A stretch of 64,000 bases of DNA from an uncultured Candidatus Poseidoniales archaeon (GTDB lineage: Archaea; Thermoplasmatota; Poseidoniia; Poseidoniales; Poseidoniaceae): positions 136,178-200,177 of the forward strand of contig CAJJAP010000004.1 of assembly GCA_905182185.1 (NCBI GenBank), written 5' to 3'. The notes below the pieces were generated by a model, which saw nothing but the letters and a program-made list of their open reading frames with translations, searched no databases and was not told where the DNA came from. The position numbers and the translations under genes were made by a program. This document shows positions 55,185 through 62,408 of the stretch, piece by piece; the first letter of the stretch is position 1; every line of letters begins with the position of its first letter.

Positions 55185-55385
55185 TCAACCGCCTGAAGAT
55201 ACCGTGGTGACAAGTAGAGTCACATCGCTGCTTAGAATAGTCGAATGGGGAAGAATTGTTCCTTCGAAACTAACAATTACTGTTGAAGGTAAAATATTCG
55301 CTTCAGTTAGTACTTGTCTAACCGTTTGACCAGGCTCAACTTCGATTTTTAAATCGTGGTCGCGTCCGTTTAAGTGCACCTGCAT
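55185..55385 (-). CDS. SAMP2-like ubiquitin-fold protein
   Basis: 66 residues from the ATG at 55385 (MQVHLNGRDHDLKIEVEPGQ), ending VTTVSSGG. The Gly-Gly end, the beta-grasp pattern and the length fit SAMP2, which is attached to proteins and acts as a sulfur carrier for tRNA thiolation in haloarchaea. Longer frames run into the divergent tRNA-Ser. PAC2 is convergent with it by nine bases. Confidence 0.8.
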   Translation of the reverse strand: MQVHLNGRDHDLKIEVEPGQTVRQVLTEANILPSTVIVSFEGTILPHSTILSSDVTLLVTTVSSGG

Positions 55386-55441
55386 AGCGATTGGACAGTG
55401 CATCATCCTTATGACCGTCGCGTAGGAGCGGGCACATAGAG

Positions 55442-55527
55442 GCCAAGATCGCATAGCCCGGTATTGCGGTGGATTCGAAATCCACTGTTCCCTGAACACG
55501 GGAGTTCAAATCTCTCTCTTGGCGCCA
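55442..55527 (+). tRNA. tRNA-Ser (CGA), CCA encoded
   Basis: Class II tRNA. Acceptor GCCAAGA/TCTTGGC, anticodon stem GTGGA/TCCAC with loop TTCGAAA (anticodon CGA), long variable arm TGTTCCCTGAACA, T arm GGGAG-TTCAAAT-CTCTC. Discriminator G (55524) and CCA (55525-55527). The last four bases are also the 5' arm of a 13-pair hairpin. Confidence 0.93.
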
Positions 55528-55568
55528 ACAACTGAGACTATATTCAATATAAATCCTCAGTTGTTGGC
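55524..55568 (+). other. 13-pair stem-loop built on the tRNA-Ser 3' end
   Basis: GCCAACAACTGAG (55524-55536) pairs perfectly with CTCAGTTGTTGGC (55556-55568) across 19 bases. The first four bases are the discriminator and CCA of tRNA-Ser. Confidence 0.8.
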
Positions 55569-55616
55569 TAAGTTTCGAACATAACCGATGAACAACGCTT
55601 GTTCGAAACTGGCGCC
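55564..55616 (+). repeat. 53-bp tRNA-Ser-end repeat R1
   Basis: Starts TTGGCTAA and ends GGCGCC, both pieces of the tRNA-Ser 3' end. Inside, GTTTCGAACA and TGTTCGAAAC form ten perfect pairs around an 18-base loop. Confidence 0.85.
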
Positions 55617-55636
55617 ATCCAGCATTAGATGACAAG

Positions 55637-55703
55637 ACGCCGAGAGAAGATTTGAACTAGACGAGAACTGAACCCTTGTTAGCGCTTCAACTGTTCTCGG
55701 CGT
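55637..55703 (-). other. tRNA-like inverted element
   Basis: ACGCCGAGA and TCTCGGCGT (nine pairs) enclose, on the minus strand, a T-loop-like GTTCAAATC and a GAAGCGCTAAC stretch. It lacks a normal D arm and CCA, so it is at most a decayed tRNA. Confidence 0.35.
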
Positions 55704-55764
55704 AGTTCAGAACTTTCAATAATTATTATTTAGCGAAAGTTCTGAGCAATAGAAGTCCTCTCTC

Positions 55765-55817
55765 TTGGCTAATTTTAGAACATAATCGATGAACAACGCT
55801 TGTTCGAAACTGGCGCC
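55765..55817 (+). repeat. 53-bp tRNA-Ser-end repeat R2
   Basis: Same length and design as R1. The bases before it, CTCTCTCTTGGC, repeat a longer piece of the tRNA-Ser acceptor strand. Confidence 0.85.
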
Positions 55818-55931
55818 TATCTCTCTTTCAAATAAAGGAGATAGGCTCTTTTTGAAGGATAAATAGCGTTTGATAGTTTCAAAAAACTGGCGCCAATGAC
55901 TGAAAATATAAGCGATGAGAATCTTCATTTA

Positions 55932-55984
55932 TTGGCTAGTTTTCGAACATAATCGATGAACAACGCTTGTTCGAAACCGGCGCC
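55932..55984 (+). repeat. 53-bp tRNA-Ser-end repeat R3
   Basis: Same length and design as R1 and R2; the second half (from CGATGAACAACG) is identical in all three but for one base. It touches the stop of the first gene of the accessory operon. Confidence 0.85.
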
Positions 55985-56787
55985 TATAACGTCTTTGGAG
56001 AATAAAAATTACGAATCTTCCACCATCTGTGTAGCAAAATCATGCACAGTACAATTGAAACTACACGGAATAGGTTTTCTGATACTAGTGTGATTCGGTT
56101 TTCCGGGGAAAAAAACTCCGAATAGAACCAATCATAAATTGAAAATCCATTTCTTGAGAAAAGTGCATCTAGAATAATTAAATAATACAAACTATATATT
56201 CTAAATGAAATCCATTTATTCCATTTTTGGACATAGCCACAGCTTAACAAAGCAATTGCTAATATGGCAATTCCGCTGGAGGTGAGCAGAGATTCAATCG
56301 GATGAAAAAGTAATCCAATCATCAGACCCAATGAGTAACTAACCGTCCATAAAATATCCTCAAAACCAATGTCCTGGTTTTCATCATATGAAAATTTAGG
56401 AATGGTAAATATCAAAACAATACCGAAGAATGCTGTAACAAATTTATCAAACAAAAATACGTAAACTACGGCTTCTGCAATATTCAATGCTAGAGCGAAG
56501 CGAAGTATTACTGGCATTAAAGCAAATACTTTTTCAAAAGACTCACCTGTAAAATGTGATTTACATTTAGAAAAAGAAAATAAGACTGTTGGAAAAATTA
56601 CACTATAATATTTAATTTGCATAAAATAACTAAAATCACTCATTTCTGCCACAAAGGGGAAGATAATTGCAATAATTACTGTAATGGCAAATGTAGTGAT
56701 TCTATACTTTTCAGCAATTGTTAAGAACAAAAAACAACCAAAAAGGTACAACGCAAATTCGAACATAAAATCACTATTCCATTTCAC
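55984..56787 (-). CDS. Polytopic membrane protein (last gene of the KAS operon), unknown
   Basis: 267 residues with about seven helices and few charged residues. Overlaps the PaaK-like gene by 14 bases. No recognisable catalytic motif; a flippase or lipid-handling role can only be guessed from its operon. Confidence 0.6.
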   Translation of the reverse strand: MKWNSDFMFEFALYLFGCFLFLTIAEKYRITTFAITVIIAIIFPFVAEMSDFSYFMQIKYYSVIFPTVLFSFSKCKSHFTGESFEKVFALMPVILRFALALNIAEAVVYVFLFDKFVTAFFGIVLIFTIPKFSYDENQDIGFEDILWTVSYSLGLMIGLLFHPIESLLTSSGIAILAIALLSCGYVQKWNKWISFRIYSLYYLIILDALFSRNGFSIYDWFYSEFFSPENRITLVSENLFRVVSIVLCMILLHRWWKIRNFYSPKTL

Positions 56788-58060
56788 ACTCTCTGTATAT
56801 TCTCCTCAATTTATTGGTCGAAGGAATGTGAGAGTGTTCAGTGATAATCAATTCGGCTTTTCGCACATTTTTTTCTTTGAATAATTCTTCAAAACCGCTA
56901 AAGTCAAGTGGATCAAGATTAGTGGGTTGAAGGCCAATTTCTATTTTACTTCTAGATTTTTGAATCGCGTGATAGGCTTCGATTTTTGGATTTAATCTCA
57001 TTACAGCTCGACGAATAAAATCTGGAACAATAGGCTCAAATTCATCTGAATTATTTTTCTGTAAATAGAATACATCATCTGAGCGACCCATTACTTGCGA
57101 AATCGCAGTTCTTGCATCACCACATTTGCAACCTTCTTTTTGTAGCACTAAAATATCGTTTTGTAGATATCTGATAATCGGTTGAGTGGTTCGCATAAAA
57201 TCGGTTAATATTGGGTGGAAGAGTCCATTTTCCTCATCGACCCACTGTTTTCCAATGTGCATGATACTCTCATTGAGATGCAAAGTACCGAACTCACAGG
57301 TTGCGGCCATTTCTCCTTCAGTTGAAGTATAAAATTGATGAACAATTTGTGAGAAGTATTCGGATATTATTTTCTCATCTATCGGATCTAGTACTTCCGC
57401 TGCAGAAATAATCCGCTTAGGATTAATTTTACAATTATTGTCTGCTAGATAACGCAAAACACTGGGTGGAGCAATCAGTTCTGTTGGATTGGCTATTTCA
57501 ACTTCCTTTTGCAATTGCTCCATCGGTTTCAGTAAATCAAAAAATGAAAACTTTATTCTTTTTGAGTTTATTTTTTCATAATTATTTGAATTCGCTCGTA
57601 AAAATAATGCAACATGATGTTTGCCTAAAATACTGCTACCTAGACCCCTCGCCAGCATAAATCCTGCCCAATTACTACCTTCATTATCACTGACAACATG
57701 TACTCCTCTCGAACCACTTGTTCCTGAAGAAAAACCGATAGAGATATCTCCAATGTGGGGTGAGAAATCCCTTGTTATTTCTGCGCTCTTTGCAATACTA
57801 TATGCCTCTTCTAAATCTAGATCTATAGTCAATAAGTTTTCAAGATTATCCATCATTAAAGCTTTGTTTACTAAGGGGAATTTCTGCCAGTCCTCATCAC
57901 CAAGACCCTGCCAATGGTTTGCGTAAAATACTGAATTCTTCCGTACGAATTTTATGTGCTTAGCAACTCTTTTTCTTTGCCACTTTTCAATCTGGGCCCG
58001 AGATTTAAACTTCTTCGGAGTCCTCAGATACCTCCACAAAGTAAGCAACTTGTTACTCAT
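56774..58060 (-). CDS. PaaK/F390-synthetase-like adenylate-forming enzyme
   Basis: 428 residues of the ANL superfamily. The phosphate loop is SIGFSSGTSGSRGVHVVS; later FYTSTEGEMAATCEFG (adenine site), YLQNDILVLQKEGCKCGD and MGRSDDVFYL (hinge Asp) follow the PaaK pattern. Such enzymes activate a carboxylic acid as its adenylate and load it onto CoA or another acceptor. Its ATG overlaps the epimerase stop by four bases. Likely supplies or consumes the acyl groups handled by the KAS-like pair. Confidence 0.82.
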   Translation of the reverse strand: MSNKLLTLWRYLRTPKKFKSRAQIEKWQRKRVAKHIKFVRKNSVFYANHWQGLGDEDWQKFPLVNKALMMDNLENLLTIDLDLEEAYSIAKSAEITRDFSPHIGDISIGFSSGTSGSRGVHVVSDNEGSNWAGFMLARGLGSSILGKHHVALFLRANSNNYEKINSKRIKFSFFDLLKPMEQLQKEVEIANPTELIAPPSVLRYLADNNCKINPKRIISAAEVLDPIDEKIISEYFSQIVHQFYTSTEGEMAATCEFGTLHLNESIMHIGKQWVDEENGLFHPILTDFMRTTQPIIRYLQNDILVLQKEGCKCGDARTAISQVMGRSDDVFYLQKNNSDEFEPIVPDFIRRAVMRLNPKIEAYHAIQKSRSKIEIGLQPTNLDPLDFSGFEELFKEKNVRKAELIITEHSHIPSTNKLRRIYRECEME

Positions 58061-58551
58061 ATTATTTCCTCCAAACCTTCTTCAAAACTTTGTTTTGGAA
58101 TCCATCCTAAAAACTTCTTAGCACCTGAAAGATCCATCACCATTCTCTTTGTTAATTGATTTACTGAATATGGAGTCAAATTTGGTTGAATAAGTCCTAT
58201 ACTTAGATGACCCATTACATTAATTGCATGTGATAAGACCTTTACTGGAAATTGAGGAATATGTTTTGCTTTGGCATTAGGATGTATGTTTTGTGCAATT
58301 TTCGACATCATGTAACCGGTCTCTAGTGGTTTGCCATTACTAATATTGTAGACTCTCCCTGTTGCCTTTACATCTGCATCAATTGCACATTCAACAGCAT
58401 CTAGGAAATTACTCATACAAGTTACATCAACCAATGTTTTCCCATTTCCAATAACCAAATAGCGCTTAGAATTAATCAGTTTTTTTATTCTCGGTAGAAC
58501 TGTTGTATCATTCTTGCCAAATACTGCCCTAGGTCTCAATCCAATCCACAT
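58057..58551 (-). CDS. NAD-dependent epimerase/3-beta-HSD-like reductase, C-terminal fragment (frameshifted)
   Basis: 164 residues: GLRPRAVFGKNDTTVLPRI, the catalytic-side DVTCMSNFLDAVECAID and KFLGWIPKQSFEEGLEEII are usual for the C-terminal half of this extended SDR family. Separated from the N-terminal half by at least two frame changes. Confidence 0.75.
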   Translation of the reverse strand: MWIGLRPRAVFGKNDTTVLPRIKKLINSKRYLVIGNGKTLVDVTCMSNFLDAVECAIDADVKATGRVYNISNGKPLETGYMMSKIAQNIHPNAKAKHIPQFPVKVLSHAINVMGHLSIGLIQPNLTPYSVNQLTKRMVMDLSGAKKFLGWIPKQSFEEGLEEII

Positions 58552-58647
58552 ACCCTTCGGGAAATCATCTCAGTATTTCCTCAGCCCGATATTTACTCAG
58601 TGAGTATGGGTGTGAAGGTGCGTTTGGATGGTAGTTCATCGCTATGA

Positions 58648-58959
58648 TTAGTCATTTGGATTTGCTTTTTCAAAAACTGAGGATGAAGAAATTACAATTA
58701 CGCGGTTGACATTCATATTAAGAGCGCTTTGCATGACTGAACGAGTTCCTTCAACATTTGTTTTAGTGAATTTATTGTTTGATCCGAAAGGTGCTGCAAA
58801 AGCTGCACTATGAATAATACAATCTGCATTGGTGAAACATTGTTCCATTTCATCTGAATTCTCTAATGAACATTTTAAGACATCAAAACCACTCTCTTTA
58901 AGTTTCTCAATCTTGTTACCATTGCGGCCTAAACCGATAACTTCATGCCCACTTTCCAC
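58648..58959 (-). CDS. NAD-dependent epimerase/3-beta-HSD-like reductase, N-terminal fragment (frameshifted)
   Basis: 103 residues. The true start is about 59019 (MRIVITGATGSLGSSIMNR), overlapping the membrane protein stop; removing one base near 58968 gives MNRLVESGHEVIGLGRNG. Then ADCIIHSAAFAAPFG, TNVEGTRSVMQSAL and VIVISSSSVFEK. The YxxxK active site (HPYSLSKYRAEEIL) lies in a third frame near 58590, so the gene has at least three breaks. Resembles OleD-type 2-alkyl-3-ketoalkanoate reductases and sugar epimerases alike. Confidence 0.75.
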   Translation of the reverse strand: MESGHEVIGLGRNGNKIEKLKESGFDVLKCSLENSDEMEQCFTNADCIIHSAAFAAPFGSNNKFTKTNVEGTRSVMQSALNMNVNRVIVISSSSVFEKANPND

Positions 58960-59016
58960 TAGATCGATTCATTATTGAAGAACCAAGTGAACCTGTTGCA
59001 CCAGTGATTACAATCC

Positions 59017-60702
59017 TCATTCTTCTTCACTCTCAAAAATTGCTGCTTTATGGAGGCTTACCTTCCACAATATAACTCCCATAGCAATAGGCCATCCCAA
59101 ACCTATAATCCACATAATTGGAACTGGTAATAGGGGAGGACTCTCAACGTATACGTCGATTGCTGTGTAATCTGAATTACCATCAATATTGGCCCAGAAT
59201 TGGATTGTATTATTGCCTGAGAATGGAAATTCTACGGTTGAAATCCATATGTCTCTGCCAGATAGTTTCTCAAATTGAAAAATCATCTTTGTCTCTCCCC
59301 TTTCACCAATGAAAATAACTTCTACCCAAACATCAGATACATTCGCTGTTTCATCCACTGGGAAGATGATTATCTCTGTTGAACCCAGTGCTTTCGGGGG
59401 ATATATCATAAATTCGACCCAAAAATCAGTACCTTCGATATCGAATAGCATTCTCATTGGCGCATCAAAGCCTTCTCCTTCCTCCGTTCGATGAACGCCA
59501 CCATGACCCTGTACTACTGGGATAAACATCATGCAAATCAGCAATAACATTGCAATAATAGCATTTATTGAAGATCGGTTATGCTTTTCTTTATTATCCA
59601 AGGGCTCTTTTTTATTCATCACTCTTAGTATCAAATTATCAATAACGATTGAAACTTTTTTAGAAGCACTATATGCAAAATACATTACCGCCATTGAAAT
59701 TATTATGGAACTAATTACTCCAAGAAGACCTGCTAATTGTGGAATTTCACTATTTGCTGGCAACCAAATTGGGTCAATACATAAGATCATTGAGAAATAT
59801 ATCCATTTGTTTTTCATTAACTTGGGCCACTTTCTAAAACACAACATCATTGGTAATAGTAGCCATGGTAAAAAAATTGTAATCTGTACTTGATGTGGAG
59901 AACCTGGCCGATATACATGTTCTGGACCCATTAACATCTCCACAAAAACTGGAATCGAAAATAATAACAATATTTGAGAAATGAAAATGATAAGTGATAA
60001 CTTTACCATCTCATCTTGGCCGAATAAGTGGATTGTCACTTCTATCAGTAGTATTGTCACTAACCCTGCAAGTGCCAGATGAGGTAATAATTTCAAACCT
60101 GCGAGTTCAATAACTGCCTCTCTTGGATTCAAGAAATCACCAATAGTGAAAAAGAAATGAAACATTAAAGTCCAAATTGCAAGAAGTGCAATCATAATTA
60201 ATAATTTATTTTCACTATTTCCTTCTCTTTGTGAAATAGATATCAATTGACAAGCCAGTACCAGTGTTGCTAATTCTGCTAACACGCCGCCAAAAATAGT
60301 CCAAAAGTGAGGCGGGGTTGCAATATTAACATCAATTCCATACTGTGCGTGCCAATAATCATCGAAAAGAGCTCCAAAAAGGATTGTAATTTGCCCGAGT
60401 AAAGTCATCCATATTGCGACTGGCGCAACGATCGGACCTATTTTCAATCCTGGGACTTCGAGACCCCTATGAAAATCGCGAGTTGTCCACATCATAAAGA
60501 GCAGTGAAACAATCATAGCTGGAAATAAACCTGCTAGTATCATGACATGGGGTGGGGTAAACATTTGATCTCGACCAACATCTAGATGCCACTGTAAATC
60601 TATAGAAAGGCCAATTCGCCCAATAATATGCCAGAGTGAGTAAACGAGAAGGATACCAAAAAGATACCTTTTTTCGATACACTCGCGTTCCGACAACATC
60701 AC
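59017..60702 (-). CDS. Polytopic membrane protein with paired WH...PPH motifs and an extracytoplasmic domain
   Basis: 561 residues. Two similar segments, LQWHLDVGRDQMFTPPHVMI (near 34) and DYWHAQYGIDVNIATPPHFW (near 115), share WH, G-D and PPH and suggest an internal duplication that could bind a metal or heme. About ten helices are followed by an exported domain after HGGVHR (near 400), then a final helix. Start ATG 60699 or GTG 60702. Function unknown. Confidence 0.65.
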   Translation of the reverse strand: MMLSERECIEKRYLFGILLVYSLWHIIGRIGLSIDLQWHLDVGRDQMFTPPHVMILAGLFPAMIVSLLFMMWTTRDFHRGLEVPGLKIGPIVAPVAIWMTLLGQITILFGALFDDYWHAQYGIDVNIATPPHFWTIFGGVLAELATLVLACQLISISQREGNSENKLLIMIALLAIWTLMFHFFFTIGDFLNPREAVIELAGLKLLPHLALAGLVTILLIEVTIHLFGQDEMVKLSLIIFISQILLLFSIPVFVEMLMGPEHVYRPGSPHQVQITIFLPWLLLPMMLCFRKWPKLMKNKWIYFSMILCIDPIWLPANSEIPQLAGLLGVISSIIISMAVMYFAYSASKKVSIVIDNLILRVMNKKEPLDNKEKHNRSSINAIIAMLLLICMMFIPVVQGHGGVHRTEEGEGFDAPMRMLFDIEGTDFWVEFMIYPPKALGSTEIIIFPVDETANVSDVWVEVIFIGERGETKMIFQFEKLSGRDIWISTVEFPFSGNNTIQFWANIDGNSDYTAIDVYVESPPLLPVPIMWIIGLGWPIAMGVILWKVSLHKAAIFESEEE

Positions 60703-61410
60703 CTATGCACTCCAATTAGTGGCCGATGTGGAACCCGCTCTATCTACTATAGTATGTTTTAAATTACCTTTTTTGTTTTGGCTCCACAACAAAAAATCAC
60801 GCATTTGAACAGACCCTAAAGAAGAACTATCGGAGGTGAATTCTGTTTCCGTTTTTATTTCTCCTTGATTCGTATAATCTCCAAAATAATTAATTATTGT
60901 TGCTTTCTTATTTGAATCAAAAGAAGATTTTGTATATGCAGATAGTTTCTCCACATTATATTCACTGGAAACAAATTCCAGCCCAGTATCATTGCTCGAT
61001 AAGACCATAGCAAGCGCATGATTTTGATAAGGCCATTTACTGTGTTTTGACGGTTTTACATCTGCACAAACAATCAGTGCATTTTTTACTTCTAAATTTT
61101 TTATAAAATGGCTAACTGTTTGAATTGAACGATGTGCACCGCGACTTCCGTCAATAATATCAAAACTGAAACAATGTTCGCTTGATAATTCTAGATCATG
61201 ACAACGAATACCTAATTTGCTTTGAATATGAGCCGCACACGATGGTTCAGAACGAAAATTAGGTCTGTAGACTCCTGAATAAATCACAACATCTATTTCC
61301 TGTAGCAAAATATTTGCCTCTTTGCACGCTTTCCTCGCAAGTTTAGCACAGTCCGCAATATTGTTTTTAGCTGTTATTTTGCCATCGGCCCAAGCAGCGA
61401 TTATAACCAT
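60703..61410 (-). CDS. KAS III-fold protein without the catalytic Cys
   Basis: 235 residues, shorter than KAS III. Thiolase-like pattern: LARKACKEANILLQEIDVVIYSG, SCAAHIQSKLGIRCHDLELS, then FDIIDGSRGAHRSIQ where an active KAS III has a nucleophile Cys (FDxxNAC). The C-terminal half is weakly conserved and the His/Asn pair cannot be found. It overlaps the active paralogue by ten bases, as a coupled partner, reminiscent of KS-chain-length-factor pairs. Confidence 0.65.
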   Translation of the reverse strand: MVIIAAWADGKITAKNNIADCAKLARKACKEANILLQEIDVVIYSGVYRPNFRSEPSCAAHIQSKLGIRCHDLELSSEHCFSFDIIDGSRGAHRSIQTVSHFIKNLEVKNALIVCADVKPSKHSKWPYQNHALAMVLSSNDTGLEFVSSEYNVEKLSAYTKSSFDSNKKATIINYFGDYTNQGEIKTETEFTSDSSSLGSVQMRDFLLWSQNKKGNLKHTIVDRAGSTSATNWSA

Positions 61411-62408
61411 GAGTTCACCCCTTGAGGAATAATAAAGTGGGCGATAAAAATACTGAGACCTGACCCATATGAATGTAGAAGGACATCCTCTCCAGCATTG
61501 AAATGGTTATCCTCCAATCCTTTCTCAAGGGCAACTGCATGAGTTGTACTAGCTGTATTTCCGGTCTCATCAACACAGATGTGATAGCATTTGCATTGTC
61601 CAAAAGCATCTACTGTAACATCATTGCCTCGTTCGATGACTTTTACTGAAGTTTGATGCGTAATAATGTGATCAATTTCTAGCCAATCTAATTCTAATGT
61701 TTTAAGCACTCTCCTAAATGATGGAATTAACTGTTTCATAGCAGCTTTATGTAGAGCCTTACCTCTTGTCCTCATTCTAGGTCCAGTTGCTCCAATAGCT
61801 GCATCTGCTACGCAGTATGAATCATATTGCGCAAGAGTCTGTGGTTCTCCGAAACGAAGCATTTTCGGATTTGAAGATACTCCAAGAAGATACGCTCCAC
61901 CCCCATCACCTACAGATAATGACGGAATCGCTCTAGGATTCAGCCAAAATGAAACTTTTTGTGCTTCATATATCACTGGTGAAGTATATTCTCCCGAGGT
62001 TACGAGAACATGCTTTGCCATGCCTGTTTTTATGTACATATCAGCAACTTTCAAGGCCGTTATCATACCCGAACAAGCATTTGAAACATCAAAATGGTCC
62101 GCATTGATCGCACCTAAGCGTTCAGCTAAAAATGATGCAAAACTTGGTTCAAGCATTTGATTACATTCTACATCTAGTTTGGAAACTGAACAATTAATGA
62201 TCAAATCAATATCTCTGACCCCAATATTGCCGCGCTTCAAAGCTTTGATACTCGCTTCATATGCTAGGCTAATAGCACATCCTCCATCCCCAACTTCTCG
62301 ATGTGATTTTATTCCAGTCAAGTCTCTCGAAATCAATCTTTCTTGGAATTGAACCCAGTGGAGCAATGTCCTTTGTGAAAACCACTTTTTTAGGCAGAAA
62401 ACCTGCAA
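61401..62408 (-). CDS. Beta-ketoacyl synthase III-like enzyme, N-terminus frameshifted
   Basis: 335 residues with the full C-H-N triad: FDVSNACSGMITAL, IDHIITHQTS and DETGNTASTTHAVAL. The first 35 residues look wrong; in another frame upstream lies SFAGFLPKKVVFTKDIAPLG, the usual KAS III start, and removing one base near 62316 joins them as FERLTGIKSHREVG. The true start is near 62454, in a region that may hold a further shift. Condenses acyl thioesters (FabH- or OleA-like); HMG-CoA-synthase-like use is possible. Confidence 0.85.
   Translation of the reverse strand: MQVFCLKKWFSQRTLLHWVQFQERLISRDLTGIKSHREVGDGGCAISLAYEASIKALKRGNIGVRDIDLIINCSVSKLDVECNQMLEPSFASFLAERLGAINADHFDVSNACSGMITALKVADMYIKTGMAKHVLVTSGEYTSPVIYEAQKVSFWLNPRAIPSLSVGDGGGAYLLGVSSNPKMLRFGEPQTLAQYDSYCVADAAIGATGPRMRTRGKALHKAAMKQLIPSFRRVLKTLELDWLEIDHIITHQTSVKVIERGNDVTVDAFGQCKCYHICVDETGNTASTTHAVALEKGLEDNHFNAGEDVLLHSYGSGLSIFIAHFIIPQGVNSWL

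Follow-up and report, generated by a model that had tools for sequence, protein, structure and literature searches.

Paired-hairpin arrays behind tRNA genes of Poseidoniales archaea suggest a site-specific recombination system with an integron-like layout

Results

Organization of the tRNA-Ser(CGA) locus

The analysed stretch of 64,000 nt (the window) originates from a Ca. Poseidoniales genome (G000) that is 63% complete, and holds a tRNA-Ser(CGA) gene followed directly by an array of 457 bases (55528-55984) and then by an operon on the minus strand (Table 1). The operon (55984-62408) includes two ketoacyl synthase III genes, an adenylate-forming ligase (TIGR02304), an OleD-like reductase and membrane proteins, and resembles a hydrocarbon or polyketide-like pathway; among sister species, it was found to be present, absent or deleted. 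Its OleD-like reductase (58057-58959, minus strand) is split into two ORFs (58057-58551 and 58648-58959), and the gene looks broken here or misassembled. On the other side (55185-55527), the tRNA gene faces the end of a PAC2-family gene in much of the genus, but an OB-fold gene in family f2 and the window group, and the block upstream of the tRNA looks inverted relative to its neighbours.

When cut at each GGC↓GCC or GGC↓T boundary, the array falls into eight stretches, all ending with GGC. U modules represent a single family of conserved 45-nt hairpins, composed of an 11-bp stem, an 18-nt loop and a GGC end, and H modules are variable hairpins of 19-45 nt, mutually unrelated in sequence, that start with GCC and end with GGC. 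The first-pass annotation had recognised three 53-bp units starting with TTGGC and ending with GGCGCC, and these were recovered exactly, each overlapping one of the modules U1, U2 and U3. The actual unit proved to exceed in size the one described there. The 18-nt loop of the first-pass annotation was retained, while the stem, described there as having up to ten pairs, comprises 11 bp due to an additional, covarying A-T or G-C pair. The proposed derivation of the unit ends from the end of tRNA-Ser applies to the last 5-8 bases only, and a separate 12-base copy of the tRNA end, CTCTCTCTTGGC, is located within block B. Drift of the left arms was also evident, as those of U2 and U3 have changed in the window and some of their pairs are broken. 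In agreement with the earlier description, the array has a much more stable fold than its dinucleotide shuffles (-141 kcal/mol, in comparison with -100.6 +/- 6.1, z = -6.6), and the other hairpins that alternate with the units proved to be real (z = -8.5 for H1, -5.3 for H3 and -2.8 for H4).

Table 1. Features of the array and its anchoring tRNA gene; the arrow marks the module boundary.
Feature	Position	Strand	Size	Remarks
tRNA-Ser(CGA)	55442..55527	+		array anchored and cut at its last bases, TTGGC↓GCC; same gene array-free in G071, G001 and G076
Module H1	55524..55568	+	45 nt	13-bp hairpin GCC...GGC; GCCA overlap with tRNA end
Module U1	55569..55613	+	45 nt	53-bp unit 55564-55616
Block B	55614..55769	+	156 nt	shared with UBA242, partly with G007
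Block B, spacer	within 55614..55769			
Block B, stretch resembling minus-strand tRNA 3′ end	55638-55658			
Block B, U-like stem	within 55614..55769			GAGAAC/GTTCTC
Block B, hairpin H2	55707-55745			
Block B, tRNA-end copy	55758-55769		12 bases	CTCTCTCTTGGC
Module U2	55770..55814	+	45 nt	53-bp unit 55765-55817
Module H3	55815..55846	+	32 nt	hairpin
Module U′	55847..55891	+	45 nt	diverged fourth U copy; relatives after tRNA-Ser(GGA) in G007, G071 and G001
Module H4	55892..55936	+	45 nt	hairpin
Module U3	55937..55981	+	45 nt	53-bp unit 55932-55984
Terminal GCC	55982..55984	+		completes last GGC↓GCC; array-free sister G071 joins tRNA to operon here

No credible gene was found in any of the modules, which are 32-156 nt long, and in an Rfam search of the window only tRNAs gave matches, the array corresponding to no family. 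The assembly of the window is supported by the independent genome UBA242, a close relative classed in Ca. Poseidoniales (a placement consistent with the window genes), because H1-U1 and the block after it recur there in identical order and position.

Fold and distribution of U modules

The alignment of ten U copies gives a common fold of the form GGC-TA-11 bp-18-nt loop-11 bp-GGC-GCC, and the boundary GGC↓GCC is present in every strong copy. In this alignment, 90.7% of the cells are paired, compared with a maximum of 59% after sliding of the partner, and both sides have changed in 12 cells, compared with 3.8 +/- 1.4 in shuffles (0/500). The fold is thus supported but not proven, since the changes sit in only four pairs and the copies are related. 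Such covariation fits DNA and RNA alike, and does not distinguish between them.

The search for U modules covered 63 genomes from the genus and 319 from the order, and used a covariance model built from five copies (R1), a spacing pattern, and a covariance model built from ten copies (R2). With R2, 11 strong matches (E < 1e-10), ten of which had gone into building that model, were found at seven loci in seven genomes, belonging to three genera of one family. Matches weaker than E = 1e-4 were located away from the target tRNAs and were taken as chance. Outside the window and UBA242, sequence or model searches that took no account of tRNAs yielded five loci: G072 through a DNA search, G076 and the G007 tRNA-Asn array through R1, G188 through the pattern, and G107 through R2. 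All five are positioned directly 3′ of a tRNA-Ser(GGA), tRNA-Ser(CGA) or tRNA-Asn(GTT) gene ending with GGCGCC, and in the 319 genomes strong copies were found only directly behind tRNAs with this end. Eleven examined loci of tRNA-Ser(GCT) and tRNA-Ser(TGA), which end with CGCGCC or TGCGCC, contained no U, the sets of tRNA loci with and without U being small and not fully blind. U was also considered as a dispersed repeat, but the 19-20-mer matches with 0-3 mismatches located away from tRNA-Ser are apparently due to chance and lie inside genes.

The tRNA-Asn array of G007 consists of three successive H-U pairs; its first U has CTCAATCGGCGCC in common with the end of tRNA-Asn, and two near-identical U copies adjoin in it. 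In UBA242, G071, G001 and G007, tRNA-Ser(GGA) is also followed by U or U′ copies. In the UBA242 assembly (L207), a run of N lies right within the U behind tRNA-Ser(GGA) and cuts it, and the G107 contig (L206 1-240) stops about 170 bases past its U. Hairpin arrays may break assemblies, and hence be under-counted.

Presence and absence of modules among relatives

In the sister species G071, the 8-kb operon region is collinear with the window at 92% identity and is attached straight to the tRNA, the whole array being missing exactly at the GGCGCC junction. At the junction with the operon, G071 reads CTCTCTCTTGGCGCC joined to TATATCGTC, and the window AACCGGCGCC joined to TATAACGTC. UBA242 has kept H1-U1 and most of block B, and the part from U2 to U3 is missing exactly after CTCTCTCTTGGC. 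G001 and G076 have neither operon nor array behind tRNA-Ser(CGA), and thus represent empty sites with an intact tRNA, as does G071 for the array alone. Behind tRNA-Ser(GGA), G076 carries an H-U pair and then GCCAATAACGCTT, which is the start of the first H in G007, so the two genomes differ at this locus by one H-U unit at GGC↓GCC.

Modules are also shared between genera, as exemplified by the H sequence ATCGTAGATTGTTGGCT, common to UBA242 and G107. Between genera, tRNA and modules align at 82-91% and flanking genes at 66-77%; the modules either move or are unusually constrained. Their absence in a sister genome at 92% identity argues for movement.

The link between the array and the operon at 56-62 kb, proposed in the first-pass annotation, did not survive this comparison. 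G071 has the full operon and no array, while in UBA242, which has an array, an internal deletion has removed the operon apart from traces of its two ends, and it follows that the array is not an att site of the operon, nor the operon its cargo. The array kept in UBA242 is shorter than in the window, and its persistence there tells against the operon link while leaving an att-like reading intact. Islands beside tRNA genes can have hairpin-array borders that are unrelated to the island.

Other insertions at tRNA ends and recombinase genes

Only GGCGCC bounds the complete array, and tRNA-end copies about 20 nt or more in length are found inside the arrays of UBA242, G007, G188 and G072. Copies of roughly 20-28 nt follow inserts in the same four genomes and in G026, the inserts of UBA242, G007, G188 and G026 being short. 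In G072, tRNA-Ser(GGA) is separated from a 28-nt copy of its own end by a 1.36-kb insert (L134 8129-9490), and H-U is located outside this insert, whose ORFs (155, 106 and 187 aa) have no relative among PHROG, Pfam, viral contigs or phages. These copies and the G072 insert indicate that ordinary integration at tRNA ends occurs here too. Charybdis elements, which are 4.6-kb circles and in some cases integrated beside tRNAs in Poseidoniales (PMC12324425), are possible agents of such insertions. A phage or virus origin of the array was rejected, because exact patterns of U, the tRNA-end core and block B were all absent from viral contigs and a distant blastn search with the array recovered nothing beyond chance level in phages.

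A conserved XerA-like protein was found in 8 of the 9 array-bearing or sister genomes, as a rule one per genome; none was found in G007, the genomes being incomplete. The single recombinase of the window genome scores best with NF040815 (XerA), at 186 bits, under the cut-off of 220. For the integron integrase IntI, integrase_gron gave 110 bits against a cut-off of 265 in this 63% complete MAG. Second tyrosine recombinases occur in G001 (313 aa) and G188 (346 aa), both away from arrays; no viral relative was found for the former, and the gene of the latter (L229 1510-2550, minus strand) is situated about 0.6 kb from a tRNA-Glu gene, where it could belong to an element integrated at another tRNA. 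No integrase gene lies within the array, within the operon, or adjoining any array seen, and Y1_Tnp (PF01797) is present in none of the nine genomes. A recombinase dedicated to the arrays was accordingly not found among the nine genomes, which is the main weakness of our account, although this absence is weak evidence because the genomes are incomplete.

Discussion

In regard to the origin of the array, we give about an even chance (a probability of roughly 0.5) to the explanation that it consists of gene-free, att-like DNA cassettes which recombine site-specifically at tRNA 3′ ends and have an integron-like layout. According to this model, cassettes would be strung onto the 3′ end of tRNA genes that end with the palindrome GGCGCC, each cassette closing with a U hairpin whose GGC, together with the GCC of the next module, would rebuild a tRNA-like end. 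A recombinase acting in trans would connect the GGC↓GCC of a cassette with that of either the tRNA or another U, and whole blocks could in this way be inserted or excised precisely behind the tRNA, which would be left intact. The likely recognition element is the U fold itself, with its outer GGC/GCC pairs, unpaired TA and GGC, 11-bp stem and 18-nt loop, comparable to the folds of integron attC sites; the substrate might be a folded single strand, the process might pass through a circular intermediate, and a benefit for the host, if there is one, would be equally conjectural. Such a site-specific reading at the level of DNA is favoured since it accounts for the cut point and the specificity for tRNAs as well as for the precise gain and loss and the sharing between genera. 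The suggestion of serial att sites made in the first-pass annotation therefore stands in outline, given the exact presence and absence at the tRNA 3′ end, the tRNA-end duplications of about 20-28 nt and the modules behind other tRNAs with the same end, while its connection to the operon does not. Several observations count against this explanation: neither a fresh insertion nor an excised circle was seen, the cassettes are gene-free, so that their persistence lacks an explanation, and some U left arms (U2, U3) have lost pairs.

The best rival, which we nevertheless regard as doubtful, is that elements with tyrosine integrases (viruses, Charybdis-like circles or plasmids) repeatedly integrated at the tRNA 3′ end and were then largely deleted, leaving H-U as the attP arm beside the core, with tandem integration stacking the arms. 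The tRNA-end copies behind inserts in five genomes, the G072 insert and the integration of Charybdis elements beside Poseidoniales tRNAs (PMC12324425) would all be expected from such a process, and tandem integration is known for archaeal elements (PMC8371274). It fits poorly, however, with back-to-back H-U pairs that have clean GGC↓GCC boundaries and no gene remnants, or with the exact-pattern absence of U, core and block B from viral contigs. Replication without any dedicated enzyme could also duplicate and delete neutral hairpins by slippage between GGCGCC repeats; in line with this, all boundaries are short direct repeats adjoining hairpins, and the tRNA-Asn array holds an adjoining, near-identical U pair. 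Slippage of this kind could have caused losses, and it can account for losses only; homologous U behind three different tRNA genes and in three genera, and modules better conserved than the flanking genes, are left unexplained, and as a full explanation we find it hardly probable.

It is quite unlikely, in our opinion, that the modules are a structured RNA, transcribed behind the tRNA and acting as processed small RNAs or trailer hairpins whose GGC/GCC ends mimic the tRNA 3′ end. The fold with its covariation, the invariable position downstream of a tRNA in the same orientation, and the tRNA-like ends (GGC-G-CC) are in line with such a role. On the other hand, the modules have no Rfam match and are missing from most of the genus, H has been free to decay in G001 and G072 (z near 0), and exact presence or absence between sister species is behaviour of DNA, so that gain and loss at the DNA level explains more. 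Very improbable is a relationship to REP-like elements, mobilised in single-stranded form by a Y1 transposase (IS200/IS605 or RAYT) and inserted 3′ of GGC. Alternation of the hairpins, the lack of a target duplication exceeding GGCGCC and the CTAG at the foot of many U copies would agree with it, and short, palindromic, alternating, non-coding sequences that are thought to be mobile are indeed characteristic of REPs and of GTAG- and CGTC-tagged palindromes; yet those are dispersed, tagged and mostly short-looped (PMC3733652), whereas U has an 18-nt loop, carries neither tag and is found only behind tRNAs, in genomes without Y1_Tnp.

Returning to site-specific cassettes, the resemblance to integrons and CALINs, whose attC hairpin arrays have also been reported in Archaea (PMC9668308), extends to several features: a tandem array anchored at one end, a unit-ending hairpin conserved more in fold than in sequence, a fixed cut point, the precise loss of whole units, and two sets of paired boxes, outer and inner, that are separated by unpaired bases, a resemblance to attC in layout. 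Unlike integrons, the arrays have no GTT core (RYYYAAC / GTTRRRY) and are cut at the palindrome GGC↓GCC, they are accompanied by no integron integrase, their units hold no genes and include a second hairpin, H, and their anchor is a tRNA end. As core, integrase and gene cassettes all failed the comparison, we describe the array as working like an integron and do not call it one. Tycheposons and similar tRNA-side islands of marine plankton likewise carry tRNA-end remnants, but these are bacterial, kilobase-sized, and equipped with cargo and recombinase genes. Archaeal tRNA-targeted elements (PMC8371274), including Charybdis (PMC12324425), share with the arrays the target, namely the 3′ end of a tRNA, which is restored once insertion has taken place, and tandem tRNA-end copies similar to those of such elements (PMC8371274) also occur in arrays; the array units, in contrast, are gene-free and 70-90 nt long, with a hairpin U common to different tRNAs and a crossover-like identity down to GGCGCC.

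A literature search of partial coverage returned no description of such arrays, and the paired-hairpin module behind serine and asparagine tRNA genes of these open-ocean archaea is apparently an undescribed kind of DNA module. Its gain and loss at one exact point in the last bases of the tRNA suggests an unrecognised site-specific recombination system. Tentatively, this could be a gene-free, integron-like system of marine archaea, in which tRNA ends act as start sites, folded single strands (U hairpins that close at GGC↓GCC) act as cassette sites, and either the XerA-like recombinase of the host or an unseen mobile element serves them in trans. If this is true, common surface-ocean archaea would own a recombination platform outside the known kinds, acting with single-base precision at tRNA ends, which would become start sites for cassette capture. 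Archaea would then also have a counterpart of integron attC arrays that does not depend on the GTT core, and the arrays would allow a compact test for the action of XerA-like recombinases on folded DNA.
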